Positions 5,176-56,160 of a DNA stretch of 64,000 nucleotides are shown piece by piece. The stretch lies in NCBI GenBank assembly GCA_001913845.2, contig MKGP02000053.1, forward strand, positions 1 to 64,000, in the 5' to 3' direction. Each line of letters starts with the position of its first letter. The stretch's first letter is position 1. Under the pieces are notes generated by a model. That model was not told where the DNA came from, made no database searches, and was given only the letters and a program-made list of their open reading frames with translations. Position numbers and translations under genes: made by a program. Source of the DNA: Limnothrix sp. CACIAM 69d (GTDB taxonomy: Bacteria; Cyanobacteriota; Cyanobacteriia; CACIAM-69d).

Positions 5176-5440
5176 GAGGATATCCGGGCAGTCAAAATTG
5201 CTACCCTGCGGGCATCATCGATCGACACAAACAAGGGGCTTTAGGGCCTGTCGTCATTTCTTAGGGTCAGGCGAAAACAGTTGATTATCCTTACCCCAAT
5301 CGTCGTAACAAGGGGCTTAAGCCCACGATCTGTCCACGGCGGAATCAAGGTTTCAGGCGATTTGACGACACCCCCTAAGCTCCTTGCCCCATGACTCTTG
5401 ATCCTTGGCCCTGGCCAAAAGATACTTTTCAGATCTTTTC
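5176..5440. mobile_element. MITE-like element, 265 bp, composite version
   Basis: Degenerate member of the repeat family best seen at 8065-8195. The left end GAGGATAT and the right end CTTTTCAGATCTTTTC are worn copies of the 16-bp terminal inverted repeat. TAA flanks both sides (5173-5175 and 5441-5443), which fits a target-site duplication. Inside are two copies of the AAGGGGCTTAAG core plus modules that reappear in inverted order in the element at 13769-14044. No transposase is encoded. It occupies most of the 760-bp gap between the amidase and hli; 5441-5746 shows nothing else recognisable. Confidence 0.7.
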
Positions 5441-7110: not shown

Positions 7111-8025
7111 TTACCGGAGGTGGGCCGATCGGGCGAAAGTCTGTCGGCTGGCCGGTTGGGGATAATTCAGTTGCGACAGGGGGCGGGTTGGTGGTTGGTG
7201 GGTTTGGGAATTTGGCCCTAGCAAGGTTCGGTAATTTTGCAAGAACACCAGTGAGGCGATCGCCAGCAGAAAATAACCAAACCAGCGTTGTAATCGATCG
7301 GCGGGCACCAACTTGGATAAATAGGCTCCGGGCAACGTGCCCAGGGCCGCCGCCCCCGTGAACGAAACGGTCAGGGGCCAATCGATCGCCACATGGCCCG
7401 CATAGCCCGCCAGACCCGCGATCGAGTTAGCCGCAATAATCACTAGGGACGTGCCGATCGCCTGTTTCATCGGGACATTGCCCAACAGCACCAACGCTGG
7501 CACGATCGCGAAACCGCCCCCCACACCCACCAGCCCGGTCAGCATTCCCACGCCGATACCCTCCGTCAGCAGCCACAGCCAGCAATAGCGACAAACGGGC
7601 TGGGGATAGGCTGCCAGGGCCGAATCTGGCGATCGATCTGCTGGGGCCGGTTGGTTGCTGCGACGAATTGTGGCGATCGCCGCCAACAGCATCATTCCCA
7701 CAAACAACATCATTTGAATGGGGGGCGTAACCCAAGGTTGGGTGGCCAACTTAGCGCCCCCAAAGGCCCCGATCGCCGTGGACAGCCCAAAAATTGCCGC
7801 CACCCGCCAGCGCACCCGCCCCGCCCGCCAGTGGGGAATGACTCCCAACAGGCTCACGGTTCCCACAATGGCCAACGTCATGGCGATCGCGGGTTTCACC
7901 GGCACGCCCATCACCGAGGTCAAAATTGGCAGGGCCAACACCGATCCGCCCCCGCCCAACAGCCCGAGGGCAATGCCAATCACCACGGCCAATCCATGGC
8001 CGATCGCCCAGATCAAACTATCCAT
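7111..8025 (-). CDS. TauE/SafE-family sulfite/organosulfur exporter
   Basis: Polytopic membrane protein of the TauE/SafE family (COG0730), proposed to export sulfite, sulfoacetate or similar anions. About eight hydrophobic segments form two halves with the family's Gly-rich signatures, [20 protein letters not shown] near the N-terminus and [20 protein letters not shown] in the second half. ATG 8025 ([11 protein letters not shown]) is chosen; the frame stays open upstream to 8100, but that part runs into a repeat element. It lies downstream of the persulfide dioxygenase and rhodanese genes on the same strand, so export of sulfite formed from persulfide oxidation is the likely job. Confidence 0.88.
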
Positions 8026-8064
8026 AAACCCATCCACAGAACCATTTATAGAACTGACCCTTAA

Positions 8065-8195
8065 GAGGATGTCTGAAAAGCCAAAATCGATACTCTGCAC
8101 GCCTCATCGATCGACGAAGACAAGATGCTCAAGCCCCTTGCCCTCACGACTATTGGCGCATTGCCCGTGCCAAAAGACACTTTTCAGACATCCTC
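8065..8195 (-). mobile_element. MITE-like element, 131 bp, best-preserved copy
   Basis: Perfect 16-bp terminal inverted repeats, GAGGATGTCTGAAAAG at 8065-8080 and its reverse complement at 8180-8195. They are flanked by TAA on each side (8062-8064 and 8196-8198), which fits a 3-bp target duplication. The interior holds a partly decayed core palindrome (ACAAGATGCTCAAGCCCCTTG) and no coding frame. Read on the minus strand it aligns along most of its length with the copy at 16951-17084. The ends and a 3-bp TNA-type duplication resemble the IS5 superfamily (IS1031-like), an inference from memory. It sits between the rhodanese and TauE genes. Confidence 0.85.
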
Positions 8196-8389
8196 TAAGA
8201 AGTGATCCTTAATTGGCTGATTGCGATCTCAATCAATCGGGATTGATCGACCATGGGAATCGTTTCAGGTCACTAAAAACCCGTCCAATTGCTTTGGCGG
8301 CCGGAATTTTTCCTGTTCACCTGCAATGGTCAGAGCTTTCTGAAGCCTGTTTCTGAAGTCTGTTGTTGTGCAGTTTCGCTGCTTGTTCC

Positions 8390-9031
8390 CTAGGACGCAC
8401 GCTGGTTATAGGGCAACTTCGCCAGCAGCATGGCCAAAGCGCAGGTGTTGGTGATGCCCGCAAACATCAGCCCAGCCCCCACAAACCCGCTCAACAGCAA
8501 GAACCAAGGGGAAACCAACGCACCCAGAACCGTGCCCGTGAACACCAAAGAGCCGGCCACGATTTGCACCTGTCGCATCAAACTGATCGGGGCCCGGCGA
8601 TCGACCAAAACGTCCAAACCCGCTGCCTTCCAAGCCTGAAGACCGCCGATCAGGTCGATCGCTGGCGTGCGGCCCGCTTGCACTAATTGATGGGCCACCT
8701 CCGCCGATCGATTTCCCGTTTGGCAACAGAGCACCACCCAGCGATCGGGCTGAGAAACCGGCACTGTTTGCAAATCCAACTTGCTCATCGGCATCGACAG
8801 CGCCCCGGGAATGCGTTCCCCGGCGAATTCCCCCGGCTCGCGCACATCCACCACAATCGCCCGATTGGTGGCCAACCAAGCCTGAAGCTCAGTGACGGAA
8901 ACCCGTTGGCGCACTGGCCCCACAGGCATCGGCTCAGTTGTCTGGACAAAATCATCGACCGTCATCGGTTGAGGTTGGGTTGCGGGCGGTTCAGTGGACG
9001 GGGAATTGACTTCAGGTTGAACAGGGGCCAT
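8390..9031 (-). CDS. Rhodanese-domain protein with C-terminal membrane hairpin (DUF2892)
   Basis: A rhodanese domain (about residues 45-140) with catalytic Cys in the active-site loop CCQTGNRS handles persulfide sulfur. A two-helix membrane domain follows (about residues 160-200, VAGSLVFTGTVLGALV and FLLLSGFVGAGLMFAGI), a DUF2892-like arrangement as in E. coli YgaP. The first 40 residues are Pro/Thr-rich and probably disordered. It is 78 bp downstream of the persulfide-dioxygenase-like gene on the same strand, so the two probably share a transcript: sulfane sulfur transfer beside oxidation. It is read towards the TauE gene across the intervening repeat. Confidence 0.9.
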   Translation of the reverse strand: MAPVQPEVNSPSTEPPATQPQPMTVDDFVQTTEPMPVGPVRQRVSVTELQAWLATNRAIVVDVREPGEFAGERIPGALSMPMSKLDLQTVPVSQPDRWVVLCCQTGNRSAEVAHQLVQAGRTPAIDLIGGLQAWKAAGLDVLVDRRAPISLMRQVQIVAGSLVFTGTVLGALVSPWFLLLSGFVGAGLMFAGITNTCALAMLLAKLPYNQRAS

Positions 9032-9109
9032 TGATCTAAATCCTGGGAAGATTTTGGAAACAGGGAGAAAAAGGAGGGAAACTCAGGGACTCCAGGGCGA
9101 ACAGCGCGT

Positions 9110-9805
9110 TCAGGCCGTTACCAGTTGCCCACATTGTTGGTTGGCGGGCACGGCTTCCGCCATCTTTTGGGGATTCGGCAGCCCCAAATTTTGCATCAGG
9201 GTCACGAAGGTTGCGCGATCGTGCCCCACAAACCGAGGATTGCAGCGTTTTTCTTCCCCGATCGTGGAAACCGAAAAGCCGCGATAGTCATGGCCCGGGT
9301 AAACCAAGGTTTCATCGGGCAGCGCAAACAGCACTTCTGTCACCACCTGATAGAGCTGTTCGGCATTGCCGCTTTGGAAGTCCGTGCGACCACAACCGCG
9401 AATGAGCAGGGAATCTCCCGTCAGCAAATGGGTTTGATTCACCAGATAGGCTAAGTGGCTGTCCGTGTGGCCCAGAGTGGCGATCGCTTGAATGGACACT
9501 GAGCCAACCCAAAACACTTCGCCATCGTCCAACTCGCGATCGGCGCAGGCGACCTTGGCCCCCATGGGGACAATTCCTTGGCAATTGGTCAAATCGCGTA
9601 GCCGACCGGCACCGGTCACATGATCCGCGTGGACATGGGTTTCTAGGCAAGCCACCAGGGTCAAGCCCAGTTCCTGAATCAGTTTGTAGTCTCGATCGAC
9701 CTGTTCCAAAACCGAGTCCACCAAGACCGCTTGGCGACTGTCCCGATCAGCGATCAGGTAACTGTAGGTGCTCGTTTCCCGATCGAACAATTGCCGAAAC
9801 AACAT
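9110..9805 (-). CDS. Persulfide dioxygenase-like MBL-fold protein (ETHE1/Blh type)
   Basis: Metallo-beta-lactamase-fold protein. The metal-binding motif THVHADHVTG near residue 60, then GHTDSH, LLTGDSLLIRGCGRTDFQ and YPGHDYRGF match glyoxalase-II-like persulfide dioxygenases, which use non-haem Fe(II) to oxidise glutathione persulfide to sulfite. Residues DYRG and the short C-terminus favour this over glyoxalase II (hydroxyacylglutathione hydrolase). Start ATG 9805 (MLFRQLFDRET) has AGGA eight bases upstream; the frame is open to 9883 but the added residues do not fit. First gene of the sulfur operon, divergent from an ArsR regulator, with a palindromic operator candidate about 120 bp upstream. 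Confidence 0.9.
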   Translation of the reverse strand: MLFRQLFDRETSTYSYLIADRDSRQAVLVDSVLEQVDRDYKLIQELGLTLVACLETHVHADHVTGAGRLRDLTNCQGIVPMGAKVACADRELDDGEVFWVGSVSIQAIATLGHTDSHLAYLVNQTHLLTGDSLLIRGCGRTDFQSGNAEQLYQVVTEVLFALPDETLVYPGHDYRGFSVSTIGEEKRCNPRFVGHDRATFVTLMQNLGLPNPQKMAEAVPANQQCGQLVTA

Positions 9806-9926
9806 AGGGCAGTTCCTAAGAGTGAAGGGTGTTGGGCAAATTAGGAGGCAAATTGAAGGAGCAAGCGGCGGAAGATAACCCAAGATGACCCAAGAGCGGT
9901 TCTGGGGTTTTCATGCTTGCTGGATT

Positions 9927-9948
9927 AATATAACTATATACTCATATT
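9927..9948. promoter_or_regulatory. AT-rich palindrome, candidate ArsR operator
   Basis: A 22-bp imperfect inverted repeat centred on TATATA: left arm AATATAAC, right arm ACTCATATT, with 18 of 22 positions symmetric. It stands between the persulfide-dioxygenase-like gene (minus strand) and the ArsR-family gene (plus strand), where a repressor would control one or both. ArsR regulators of the BigR/SqrR group are known to bind AT-rich palindromes of this size. The symmetry is seen; the binding is inferred. Confidence 0.5.
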
Positions 9949-10261
9949 TTAAATTTACCACCCGATCGCCCCCATTTTTGCACCGGCTCCGTTAGCCTGG
10001 GGGGCCAGTCGTCACCCAGCTTCACTGGAATCGGGTTACCACCAGAATGCTCGATCGCCTTGATTTTGCCCAATACTTTCCTTCAGGGACAATTGAGCCA
10101 TCCAATGGGGTAGAGTTGCCTTCGCAAGGGGATCAGAATCCTTAACATCCTGTGGAGATCTCTCCTTCCCTGTCCACTGCTGCCCTCGGTCAAGCCCTGA
10201 TTCTGCATCCATGGCACCCCTCCGCAACTCTCCTTTTCCCTTCGCTTGGACATCGAGTTCT

Positions 10262-10606
10262 ATGGCTAATACCCTTGACCATGAGTTAGACGCACTGGCA
10301 TTCGTCGCGGACTATCTCAAGGTTTTGTCGGAACGCAATCGATTGCGAGTGCTGTGCTGTTTGCGGGAGGGGCCCCGAAATGTGGCGGAAATTGTGGAAG
10401 CAACGGGCCTGACCCAGGCTAATACCTCCAAGCATCTAAAAGTTTTGTCTCAGGCGGGCATGGTGGCTCGACAATCCCAAGGCACCAGCGCCTATTACCG
10501 AATTGTGGATCCGCTGATTTTTGATCTTTGTGAATTAATTTGGCGACGACTGAGCGATCGCTTGGAACAGCAACAACAGGTGATCGCCAGTTTTCGGGTG
10601 CAGTAA
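10262..10606 (+). CDS. ArsR-family transcriptional regulator
   Basis: Small winged-helix repressor (114 aa from ATG 10262; 131 aa from the alternative ATG 10211). The helix-turn-helix region reads VAEIVEATGLTQANTSKHLKVLSQAGMV, followed by a wing with SQGTSAYYRI. There is no CxCxxC metal site. Cysteines occur at residues 32-33 (VLCCLREG) and 90 (FDLCELIW). Persulfide sensors of the BigR/SqrR/YgaV group use one Cys in the equivalent first position and one in the last helix. Here the second Cys is about two helical turns earlier, so thiol sensing is possible but unproven. Its place opposite the persulfide operon suggests it controls that operon. Confidence 0.88.
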   Translation: MANTLDHELDALAFVADYLKVLSERNRLRVLCCLREGPRNVAEIVEATGLTQANTSKHLKVLSQAGMVARQSQGTSAYYRIVDPLIFDLCELIWRRLSDRLEQQQQVIASFRVQ

Positions 10607-13768: not shown

Positions 13769-14044
13769 GAAGCTGTTTCAAAAGCCAAAATTGCTACCTT
13801 GTAGGTCTCATCGATCGGGGCAAACAAGGGGTTTAGGACTTGTCGCCAAATCGTCTGCAACCCTAATTCCACCGTTAGCGGATCGTGGGGAGCAAGGGGC
13901 TTGAGCATCTTGTTATGACGACTAGGGTACGGAAGATCGACCGTTTCAGCCTCACCTCGAAAAAAGACGACAGGCCCTTAATCCCTGTGCTCCGCGATTT
14001 ATGGATCCTTGACCCATGCCCAAAGACACTTTTCAGACATTTTC
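13769..14044. mobile_element. MITE-like element, 276 bp, composite version abutting cry
   Basis: The left end GAAGCTGTTTCAAAAG and right end CTTTTCAGACATTTTC are worn forms of the family's 16-bp terminal repeat. Flanking trinucleotides are TAG (which is the cry stop codon) and TGA, so a duplication is not clear. The first 70 bp parallel the element at 5176-5440, but the central modules (GACGACTAGGG to GACGACAGGCCC) are in the opposite orientation, as if part had flipped. A core variant GCAAGGGGCTTGAGCATCTTG lies at about 13889-13909. No coding frame. Confidence 0.65.
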
Positions 14045-16950: not shown

Positions 16951-17084
16951 AAGGATGTCTGAGAAGTCACTTGGGATGCTGGCAAAGCGCGGGTAGTCGT
17001 GGGGGCAAGGGGCTTAAGCCCCTTGTCTTTGTTGCTCGACGAGACGACTGACAGGGTAGTCGTTTTGGCTTTTCAGACATCCCC
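16951..17084 (+). mobile_element. MITE-like element, 134 bp
   Basis: The left terminal repeat AAGGATGTCTGAGAAG and right terminal CTTTTCAGACATCCCC are the family ends with three changes. The inner palindrome GCAAGGGGCTTAAGCCCC at 17005-17022 is intact and continues CTTGT. Flanking triplets TGG and TGA do not give a clean duplication. It is collinear with the copy at 8065-8195 read on the minus strand. It lies between psbH and tatA; the rest of that 616-bp gap has no recognisable gene. Confidence 0.78.
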
Positions 17085-25700: not shown

Positions 25701-26257
25701 TTCACGACGACCTCGATCGCGCCGTCTTCCGCGCCTACGGTTGGGACGACCTCATCCCCCTACTGACCACCCACCAGACAAGGGGCTTAAGCCCCTTGCC
25801 CCCCATCGACGATCGCCCCTTGCCCCCCGACGAGGAACCCACCAACAGCCTCGATGAACAAATCTTGGAACGGCTGGTGAAACTCAACGCCGAACGCGCC
25901 GCCGAAGAGCGCAACGGCCACATCCGCTGGCTGCGGCCCGACTACCAAGCCCCCGCCACCCAAGCCACCCAAACCGCGATCGCCAACCTAATCGACAGCC
26001 CCGAGCCGATCGTCCCCGCCGCCGAGCCACAGCCCTGGCCCACGCAACCGAAAGCCCAACTCGCTGCGATCCGCGACCTCCTCCGCAGCAACCCCGGCAA
26101 CTGGTCGATCGACCAAATCGCCGCCCAATTCAAGGGCAAAGTCACCGACAAACGCAGACAAATTATTCGCGAAAACCTCGATCGGCTCGAATGGTTCGGC
26201 CTCGCAATTCAGCACGCAGAAACCTGGCACTACGCCGCCCCCAACCCGATCGCCTAG
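22766..26257 (+). CDS. Single-chain restriction-modification enzyme, MmeI-like type IIL/IIG
   Basis: Large protein fusing nuclease, DNA adenine methyltransferase and target recognition. The N-terminal region has the MmeI-type nuclease motif D-x9-E-x-K in DFYKAGCFLIEAKQ (about residues 73-86). A helical spacer follows. The methyltransferase has motif I DPACGTGNFLYV (about residues 398-410) and motif IV NPPF (about residue 565), expected to form N6-methyladenine. The target-recognition part (about residues 570-905) is AT-rich and nearly free of HIP1 sites, unlike the flanks. The C-terminal 250 residues are helical and contain a short repeat-derived insertion, HQTRGLSPLPP. Length of 1163 aa suits the family. 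ATG 22766. The target site cannot be predicted. Confidence 0.88.
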   Translation: MTPDDRDRVAAFLKKWQGSEGNERANYQSFFGDWCRALGVEEPPPKGTVPGDPYCFDKDIKFYSDKAESTRFADFYKAGCFLIEAKQGSDSSAKGHGKRGTKIYRDNLQKAFNQAKSYAYNRMLGSLPPFLMVCDIGSHFEIWQGFSGEYGGYGARETVNLADLAQPEVFDRFVKIFTDPQALNPEKLRARVTREVAAELAKLSRWLEEQGHDPQVTASFLMRCIFTMFAEDVALLKGEVFTKALRDRWITNPATFKPDIEQLWQTMNTGGRFGFEQILQFNGSFFENATAIALPKEQLEILYAAAAKDWSQVEPAIFGTLLERALDKAERSRLGAHYTPRSYVERLVRPVVMEPLRSQWEAIELEVKRLLDGSAGAVAKAAAEIQGFLEQLRSIRILDPACGTGNFLYVSLDLLKGLEQEVLTRLVDVAGNIQLETQQVNPSQFLGIEINPRAAAIAELVIWIGYLQWHFKRFGNAEPPEPVLQAFGNIENRDAVLAYDGMEPDVDPKTGQVRTRWGGKTMVHPVTGKEVPDPTDQKVIYRYLNPRPAEWPAADYIVSNPPFIGNTWIREELGDGYAEAIRRVYTDVPDTVDFVMYWWHKSALEVRNGRPKAFGLITTNSISQVFQRKVIDFHLKQTNPIELIFAIPDHPWVDKGADVRIAMTAGVDSRCDRLQMPYILKIISEGFSDEQEEFKVDLSFSKEEAFKIFSNLQGLLDTGKVASLRSNEKLSGPGVKLHGSGFLIDKKAFQKWGYKYPIIKEYLNGRDLVGKSRNLFAIDFFGLSELEASQYSEPFQQILDKVKPERDLNRREVRKNNWWLFGENVQKTRKSIESLARYIATVETAKHRVFVFLRGEILPDNMLIAIALEDAYFLGVLSSKIHVAWALAAGGTLEDRPRYNKTVCFDPFPFPDPDDRLKQEIRELGDRLDAHRTTVQANHPDITITGMYNLLEKLRAGQPFTDKDRELNDRALVSTLKQIHDDLDRAVFRAYGWDDLIPLLTTHQTRGLSPLPPIDDRPLPPDEEPTNSLDEQILERLVKLNAERAAEERNGHIRWLRPDYQAPATQATQTAIANLIDSPEPIVPAAEPQPWPTQPKAQLAAIRDLLRSNPGNWSIDQIAAQFKGKVTDKRRQIIRENLDRLEWFGLAIQHAETWHYAAPNPIA
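25778..25798 (+). repeat. Repeat core palindrome inserted in frame in the restriction-modification gene
   Basis: AAGGGGCTTAAGCCCCTT, the internal palindrome shared by the MITE-like elements, occurs intact here with the same flanking ACA and GCCCCCC as at 27986 and 56063. It is read without a stop as TRGLSPLPP within an acidic, Pro-rich linker. The terminal inverted repeats are absent, so only the core is present. Confidence 0.85.
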
Positions 26258-36062: not shown

Positions 36063-36194
36063 GGCTAATCATCAGCCTGAATCATTGGGCTAGATCACCA
36101 GGAATCTTGCTGTTGTTGGGTTTCGTACCTCAACCCAACCTACTAGCACGATAGGCTTAATACATTGGGTCAAAGTTGCGGAGCCAGTCGTGGT

Positions 36195-36216
36195 AACAAG
36201 GGGCTTGAGCATCTTG
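36195..36216 (+). repeat. Degenerate repeat core after cysE
   Basis: ACAAGGGGCTTGAGCATCTT matches the variant core of the element at 13769-14044 (GCAAGGGGCTTGAGCATCTT) and is preceded by GTCGTGGTA, as in other copies. The rest of the 296-bp gap (36063-36358) shows only scattered family fragments. Confidence 0.65.
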
Positions 36217-36358
36217 CTGCCTAACGATCGGGTGACGGTAACAGCCATGTCATTTAACCCAGCGAATTAAGGCAGCCACGCTACTACAAGGCTGGGCTAG
36301 TTACTGGGCCGGATGCCGTCCGGCTGGTGGTTTTGCGCCTTGCTGATTTGCACCTTGC

Positions 36359-54332: not shown

Positions 54333-54641
54333 TCACTCCTCAAGAATTGGAAAACCCAATGCGGCCTAGTCTTAGCCCGTTCTGGCTCGATCGAGCAAAT
54401 CGATCGCCCAGGAGCCTCGGCCCTGAGTTTGCTCCTGGGTTGATCAAACTGGTTGATCGGATTGGTTGATCAAATCAGGGGCCGGTCTGAAGCCCGGGTG
54501 GATCTAATCTCTCAATCTAATATTCAAATTCAATCTCTGAAACTGATCTCTAGAATTCGTCTCTAGGCCTAATTTCTAGAATTTATCTCTGAAATCCATG
54601 AGTCTTCAATCCGCTCATGAATTGCATAATCGCTCGCGAGG

Positions 54642-54781
54642 AATATCTGAAAAGTATCTTTGGAGACTGGCAAAGCACCCATAGTCGTGGATGCAAGGCA
54701 TTTCAGCTCTTTAGCTGTGTCGATCGACCACGGATCAATTTTGGCTGCTCAGATTTGGCTGCTCAGATTTGGCTGCTCAGA
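54642..54781 (+). repeat. Half-copy of the MITE family joined to a 14-bp triplicate
   Basis: GAGGAATATCTGAAAAG at 54642 starts a stretch that follows the element at 16951 for about 90 bp (TGGCAAAGC, TAGTCGTGG, a worn core), but no right-hand terminal repeat is found. It ends in three perfect tandem copies of TTTGGCTGCTCAGA (54740-54781). The remainder of the 620-bp gap between natB and tRNA-Ser has no gene. Confidence 0.65.
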
Positions 54782-54952
54782 GATCCGCTCAAGTTGATGG
54801 ATTTTTGAGAATATTTTTAAAAATATCTGTGACTGATGACTATCTCGATCACGGTTTCATAACCATGAGTGGCTATTTACCATTTGATCGATCGACATGA
54901 TCGATCATGGTTCGGCCTTGAAGTCAGACCCTATTTCAAAGTCTGTTCGGAA

Positions 54953-56062: not shown

Positions 56063-56160
56063 ACAAGGGGCTTAAGCCCCTTGTCCCCCACGATCCGCTA
56101 ACGGCAAATCTAGAGTTGCGGGCGATTTGACGACACCCCCTGATCCCCTTGCCCCCTGAG
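56063..56160 (+). repeat. Repeat core palindrome with flanking modules
   Basis: The intact core AAGGGGCTTAAGCCCCTT (with ACA and GTCCCCC flanks) is followed by the modules CACGATCCGCTAACGG and GGCGATTTGACGACACCCCC and then CCCCTTGCCCC, the same modules found in the elements at 5176 and 13769. Terminal inverted repeats are missing. Confidence 0.75.

Follow-up and report, generated by a model that had tools for sequence, protein, structure and literature searches.

Insertion sequences of the IS1031 subgroup of the IS5 family, such as ISLrh, prefer TNA as a target and generate direct repeats of exclusively 3 bp (PMC12016507). Short, multi-copy, non-coding elements with inverted ends include Nezha (cited in PMC3733652) and the MITEs of Anabaena sp. 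90, for which, as in the present case, no matching IS was reported in the same genome (PMC3542288). In the window analyzed here, which is a stretch of 64,000 nucleotides from Limnothrix sp. CACIAM 69d, an element that we named MITE-A occupies positions 8065-8195 and resembles Nezha and the Anabaena MITEs in length, copy number, inverted ends and lack of coding capacity, a likeness of description. With the IS1031 subgroup, MITE-A shares the TNA target, the exclusive 3-bp duplication and a type of end that is 16-17 bp long and starts with GA; unlike that subgroup, it carries no transposase and measures only 131 bp. Its parts are as follows:

8062..8064, no strand: target-site duplication TAA, left (one TAA in the congener)
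8065..8195, forward strand: MITE-A, young copy of 131 bp, at a site that is empty in the congener
8065..8080, forward strand: left terminal inverted repeat GAGGATGTCTGAAAAG, conserved across copies
8121..8140, forward strand: palindromic core in its variant form, CAAGATGCTCAAGCCCCTTG
8180..8195, reverse strand: right terminal inverted repeat, the perfect complement of the left one
8196..8198, no strand: target-site duplication TAA, right (one TAA in the congener)

A sequence-only reading of the window had described this element as 131 bp long, with perfect 16-bp inverted ends and TAA on each side, and all of these statements were exact. It had also denied the element any coding capacity, which agrees with our result that the ORFs across it are extensions of the neighboring gene or run antisense to it. 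Because MITE-A contains no gene, its transposase must work in trans. Perfect 16-bp inverted pairs spaced by 30-300 bp numbered 2 in the window, whereas 20 random windows from a second-order Markov model contained none. No Rfam family covers MITE-A, the sole match being to the psbN UTR, and comparison of MITE-A with plasmids and phages gave no match.

A search for further copies, which the same reading had proposed, showed that MITE-A is multi-copy. BLAST against the genome itself (4.57 Mb in 100 contigs) matched MITE-A at no fewer than 41 places, with E-values down to 2.7e-63; genomic copy counts are lower bounds, since BLAST scoring covered 40 of 327 candidates. With no more than one mismatch allowed, GATGTCTGAAAAG from the inner part of the ends was counted 179 times in the genome, compared with 2 occurrences of the reversed control (both 13-mers). 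A chance repeat was rejected on these end counts together with the absence of inverted pairs from the random windows. When loci were fetched around the ends, the lengths of the short copies clustered at 130-131 bp. Among 63 aligned short copies, 13 were >94% identical to the window copy, itself included, with a mean pairwise identity of 97%, which suggests a recent burst of MITE-A; other copies have diverged to about 80%. The family is present in all three species of the genus that were examined, and its ends were found in the sister genus too. The other copies in the window, two of them interrupted by a second family, MITE-B, are the following:

5176..5440, forward strand: MITE-A interrupted by MITE-B, with TAA on both sides; absent from the congener
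5244..5375, forward strand: MITE-B in the central palindrome of MITE-A
13769..14044, forward strand: MITE-A interrupted by MITE-B, which is missing from the MITE-A copy that the congener has here
13836..13977, reverse strand: MITE-B in MITE-A, opposite to the copy at 5244, with boundaries read from the sequence
16951..17084, reverse strand: MITE-A, older copy, with a perfect core at 17006-17025 and a TGA duplication whose left copy has decayed to TGG
about 54638..54788, reverse strand: MITE-A, decayed, nearly complete, with 124 of 131 positions alignable

The relative at 16951-17084, previously called collinear, is real; it lies in the opposite orientation and is 77% complementary to the young copy. 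What had been taken for a half-copy at 54642 is instead a decayed copy of nearly full length, alignable over 124 of the 131 positions. At the right end of this copy (54730-54781), TTTGGCTGCTCAGA is repeated three times in tandem.

The flanks of the copies defined the target. Identical 3-bp flanks were found in 50 of 66 short copies, and all 50 were TNA (TAA in 21, TTA in 14, TCA in 9 and TGA in 6), whereas the next three bases outward, used as a control, were identical in only 2 of the 66. Earlier, TAA flanks had been noted; this applies to the copy at 8065, but the general target is TNA and not TAA alone. The expectation of 3-bp TNA duplications of the IS5/IS1031 kind was borne out, with all four TNA forms seen among the copies. 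The base before the duplication was C in 39 of the 50 cases and the base after it was G in 40, indicating that the target of MITE-A is CTNAG. Since MITE-A starts with G, its junctions read CT-TNA-G and the CTNAG target is re-formed. A tandem pair of MITE-A copies with one TAA in common (contig C42) and a copy abutted by the resident IS5 element (C49) fit such re-creation of the target at the junctions. On C85, a MITE-A copy lies inside the resident IS5.

Comparison of insertion sites with a related strain, another check that had been suggested, was run on a congener (G001) whose sequence is collinear with that of the window and for the most part 88-98% identical to it. The congener lacks MITE-A at 8065, where CCCTTAAGAAGTGA contains a single TAA, and at 16951, where there is a single TGA. 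The composite element at 5176 is also absent. In a 400-kb stretch of the congener, base-precise empty sites correspond to the copies on C93 (TTA), at C69:26301 (TTA), on C47 (TGA) and on C68 (TAA), and the composite copy at C69:44722 is likewise absent with base precision (TAA). Overall, the site at 8065 and about ten others were empty, several of them base-precisely, and about seven others were filled; sites filled in both species include the pairs L033/L126, L068/L130, L103/L128 and L121/L146 and the site at 13769. The combination of empty and shared sites indicates that transposition took place both before and after the species split.

The two composite elements had been listed as longer versions of MITE-A. 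They do contain MITE-A, but they are not simply longer, MITE-B having been inserted at their center. MITE-B is 142 bp long, has the ends GGGCCTGTCGTCA and duplicates TA within CTTAAG or CTAG. The opposite orientations of MITE-B at 5244 and 13836 point to independent insertions. At 13769, and likewise at the site orthologous to C85:37.7 kb, the congener carries MITE-A without MITE-B; the latter site shows the palindrome uninterrupted. About one third of the MITE-B copies examined sit in such a MITE-A palindrome. Across loci L215-L261, MITE-B was seen to insert recurrently into the CTTAAG center of MITE-A in either orientation.

MITE-A thus combines short length, lack of coding sequence, inverted ends, dispersed copies, target duplication and empty sites, as MITEs do, and in all 50 copies with identical flanks it shows the 3-bp TNA duplication of an IS1031-subgroup derivative. 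The copies, the TNA duplications and the empty sites in the congener together identify a mobile MITE of the IS5-family, IS1031 type. On this sequence evidence, MITE-A is another bacterial MITE family, one that is very well supported and for which the target and empty-site evidence is unusually clear. The copies with their duplications and target, as well as the empty and the filled sites, are shown by the sequences; the identity of the transposase and any present-day activity are what we infer. It is very probable that MITE-A is a non-autonomous MITE on which a DDE transposase of the IS1031 type of the IS5 family acts, binding the 16-bp ends and inserting the element at CTNAG with duplication of TNA. 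Each insertion would re-form CTNAG at the junctions and so give rise to tandem copies and to neighboring IS insertions.

Which IS supplied this transposase was addressed by comparing ends. The proposal that MITE-A is mobilized in trans by an IS of the same genome stood insofar as the element is non-autonomous and multi-copy, but no such IS was found in the assembly. In the 100 contigs, no transposase with MITE-A ends was detected, and the same-ended IS that a Type I MITE has in its own genome was not seen; this absence is weak evidence, since the assembly is fragmentary and several contigs end in IS sequences. The sister genus has PF01609 transposases that lie between ends of the sequence GTGGATGTCTGAAAAG, which is identical to the MITE-A ends at 15 of 16 bases, and one copy of 897 bp has TAA on both sides. 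The proteins fit the NCBIfam model IS5_3 as well as Pfam DDE_Tnp_1/DUF4096 (PF01609/PF13340), and the transposase is split over two frames, as in the IS1031 subgroup. All copies seen were decayed or frameshifted, with broken reading frames, and this IS has only its ends in common with MITE-A, no subterminal sequence being shared. An IS with these ends, known now only as sister-genus relics, would be the best candidate partner; an IS of this type probably mobilized MITE-A, and it may have been lost from the Limnothrix genome or be unassembled there.

Two other accounts of MITE-A were weighed against this one. The IS5-family fragments found in the assembly belong to one element with the ends GAGCTGATTTATAAAGC, and this resident IS5 might move MITE-A by cross-recognition: it is present in the genome and the genus, uses TNA targets, has insertions adjoining MITE-A, and its ends, like those of MITE-A, start with GAG and finish with AAAG. 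However, the two kinds of ends agree at only about 10 of 17 positions, against 15 of 16 for the sister-genus IS, and we consider cross-recognition unlikely. Far less probable still is that the copies are a functional but immobile repeat, such as a terminator or a processing hairpin, spread by recombination. The MITE-A strand does fold into a strong hairpin (z of -6.4 for the window copy and about -6 to -7.5 overall), but scans for terminators and promoters near the copy at 8065 found nothing, including no terminator-like T run, and the TNA duplications, which are exact, speak against such a repeat, as do the base-precise empty sites; the empty sites refute an immobile origin. Among other transposase classes, IS630/Tc1-mariner, which duplicates TA, was rejected because the duplication of MITE-A is 3 bp and TNA, and the DDE_3 transposases of the genome were rejected as partners because no such ends bound them.

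Judging from translations, the copy at 8065 appears to lie shortly before the start of a gene for a TauE-like transporter, with a rhodanese-domain gene upstream of it on the same strand, and an influence on the expression of these neighbors is possible. The surrounding interval, 7111-10606, has the appearance in translation of a sulfide or sulfite detoxification cluster, with the TauE-like transporter, the rhodanese domain, a metallo-beta-lactamase domain and an ArsR-type regulator.

Elhai and colleagues are said to have described small dispersed repeats as hairpin-forming sequences of 21-27 nt that occur inside other repeats and alone. PMC3116915 and PMC4390886 cite such cyanobacterial repeats (Elhai et al. 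2008). By description, the palindromic core of MITE-A resembles them in being a dispersed palindrome within the 20-30-nt range that is found alone as well as inside other repeats. As short dispersed palindromes, REP/REPIN elements (PMC3116915, PMC3733652) are also similar, but the core lacks their terminal GTAG/CGTC tag. The 20-mer CAAGGGGCTTAAGCCCCTTG forms the center of MITE-A, MITE-B and a third family, MITE-D, and so is shared by at least three families of MITEs whose ends are unrelated and which differ also in their duplications: TNA for MITE-A, TA for MITE-B and CTAG for MITE-D. The fixed three-base variant of the core seen at 8121 is found in each of the three families and, within MITE-A, on either arm. 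Further core-bearing features of the window are:

25779..25798, no strand: solo core, in frame within the gene for a putative DNA methyltransferase of 1163 aa
27987..28006, no strand: solo core between genes
36144..36286, forward strand: MITE-D, the third family, whose ends differ but whose core, at 36197-36216, is the same
56064..56083, no strand: core bordering half a MITE-B (right half only)

The ends of MITE-D are about TAGTAGCGTGGCAGGC, and a relative (L299:338-483) is inserted in the congener only, at the site corresponding to about 18800 of the window, with a CTAG duplication. The congener's orthologue of the methyltransferase gene has no core, and the surrounding linker differs too. 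In a biased sample of 181 distinct core sites, both sides carried MITE-A ends in 81, MITE-B ends in 41 and MITE-D ends in 4, and one site was an A/B chimera; a recognizable end was present on one side in 35 and on neither in 19. The core pattern has about 270 strand-wise matches in the genome itself (265/271 strand hits); among 386 genomes from the phylum, 17 contain it, the control giving 0 throughout. Members of other families gave 73, 54 and 18 matches (control 0), and five distant cyanobacteria (G122, G135, G058, G347 and G242; loci L279-L298) carry repeats of this 20-bp palindrome in different surroundings. The extended core had no match in viral contigs. In the papers on repeats that were searched, the core sequence is not printed, and a shorter 12-mer matched only an unrelated cancer paper.

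How one palindrome came to occupy several families may be explained by its exchange between MITEs, through recombination and conversion, or by movement of the core on its own. The core could be a relic of a single ancestral MITE that had its ends exchanged, with solo cores as the remains of decayed elements, and we give this account a chance only a little short of even: half-elements and the A/B chimera exist, so exchange at the core does occur. Against it stand solo cores that unique sequence flanks on either side, one of them in frame in a gene, and the repetition of the same 20-mer in unrelated contexts in distant cyanobacteria. Alternatively, and more tentatively, the core (about AGACAAGGGGCTTAAGCCCCTTGYCCCC) might be an independent mobile or copied micro-element that entered, or was exchanged among, MITEs of different transposases, serving as a preferred site of mutual insertion and a recombination hinge. 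If the core is independent, the MITEs would be vehicles that carry the palindrome across cyanobacteria. The shared core, a single 20-bp palindrome in two variants that joins at least three types of MITE ends and is scattered over cyanobacterial families, is the more interesting lead of this analysis, and it makes the spread of the smallest dispersed repeats of cyanobacteria testable by comparison of solo-core sites between close relatives.

In addition, ends like AGACCTCTTGCA mark another repeat, which appears to be one more MITE or IS family (at the L090 orthologue, G001:C1:20653-21044, and in L269 and L274). Repeats with such ends were also joined to half copies of MITE-B.
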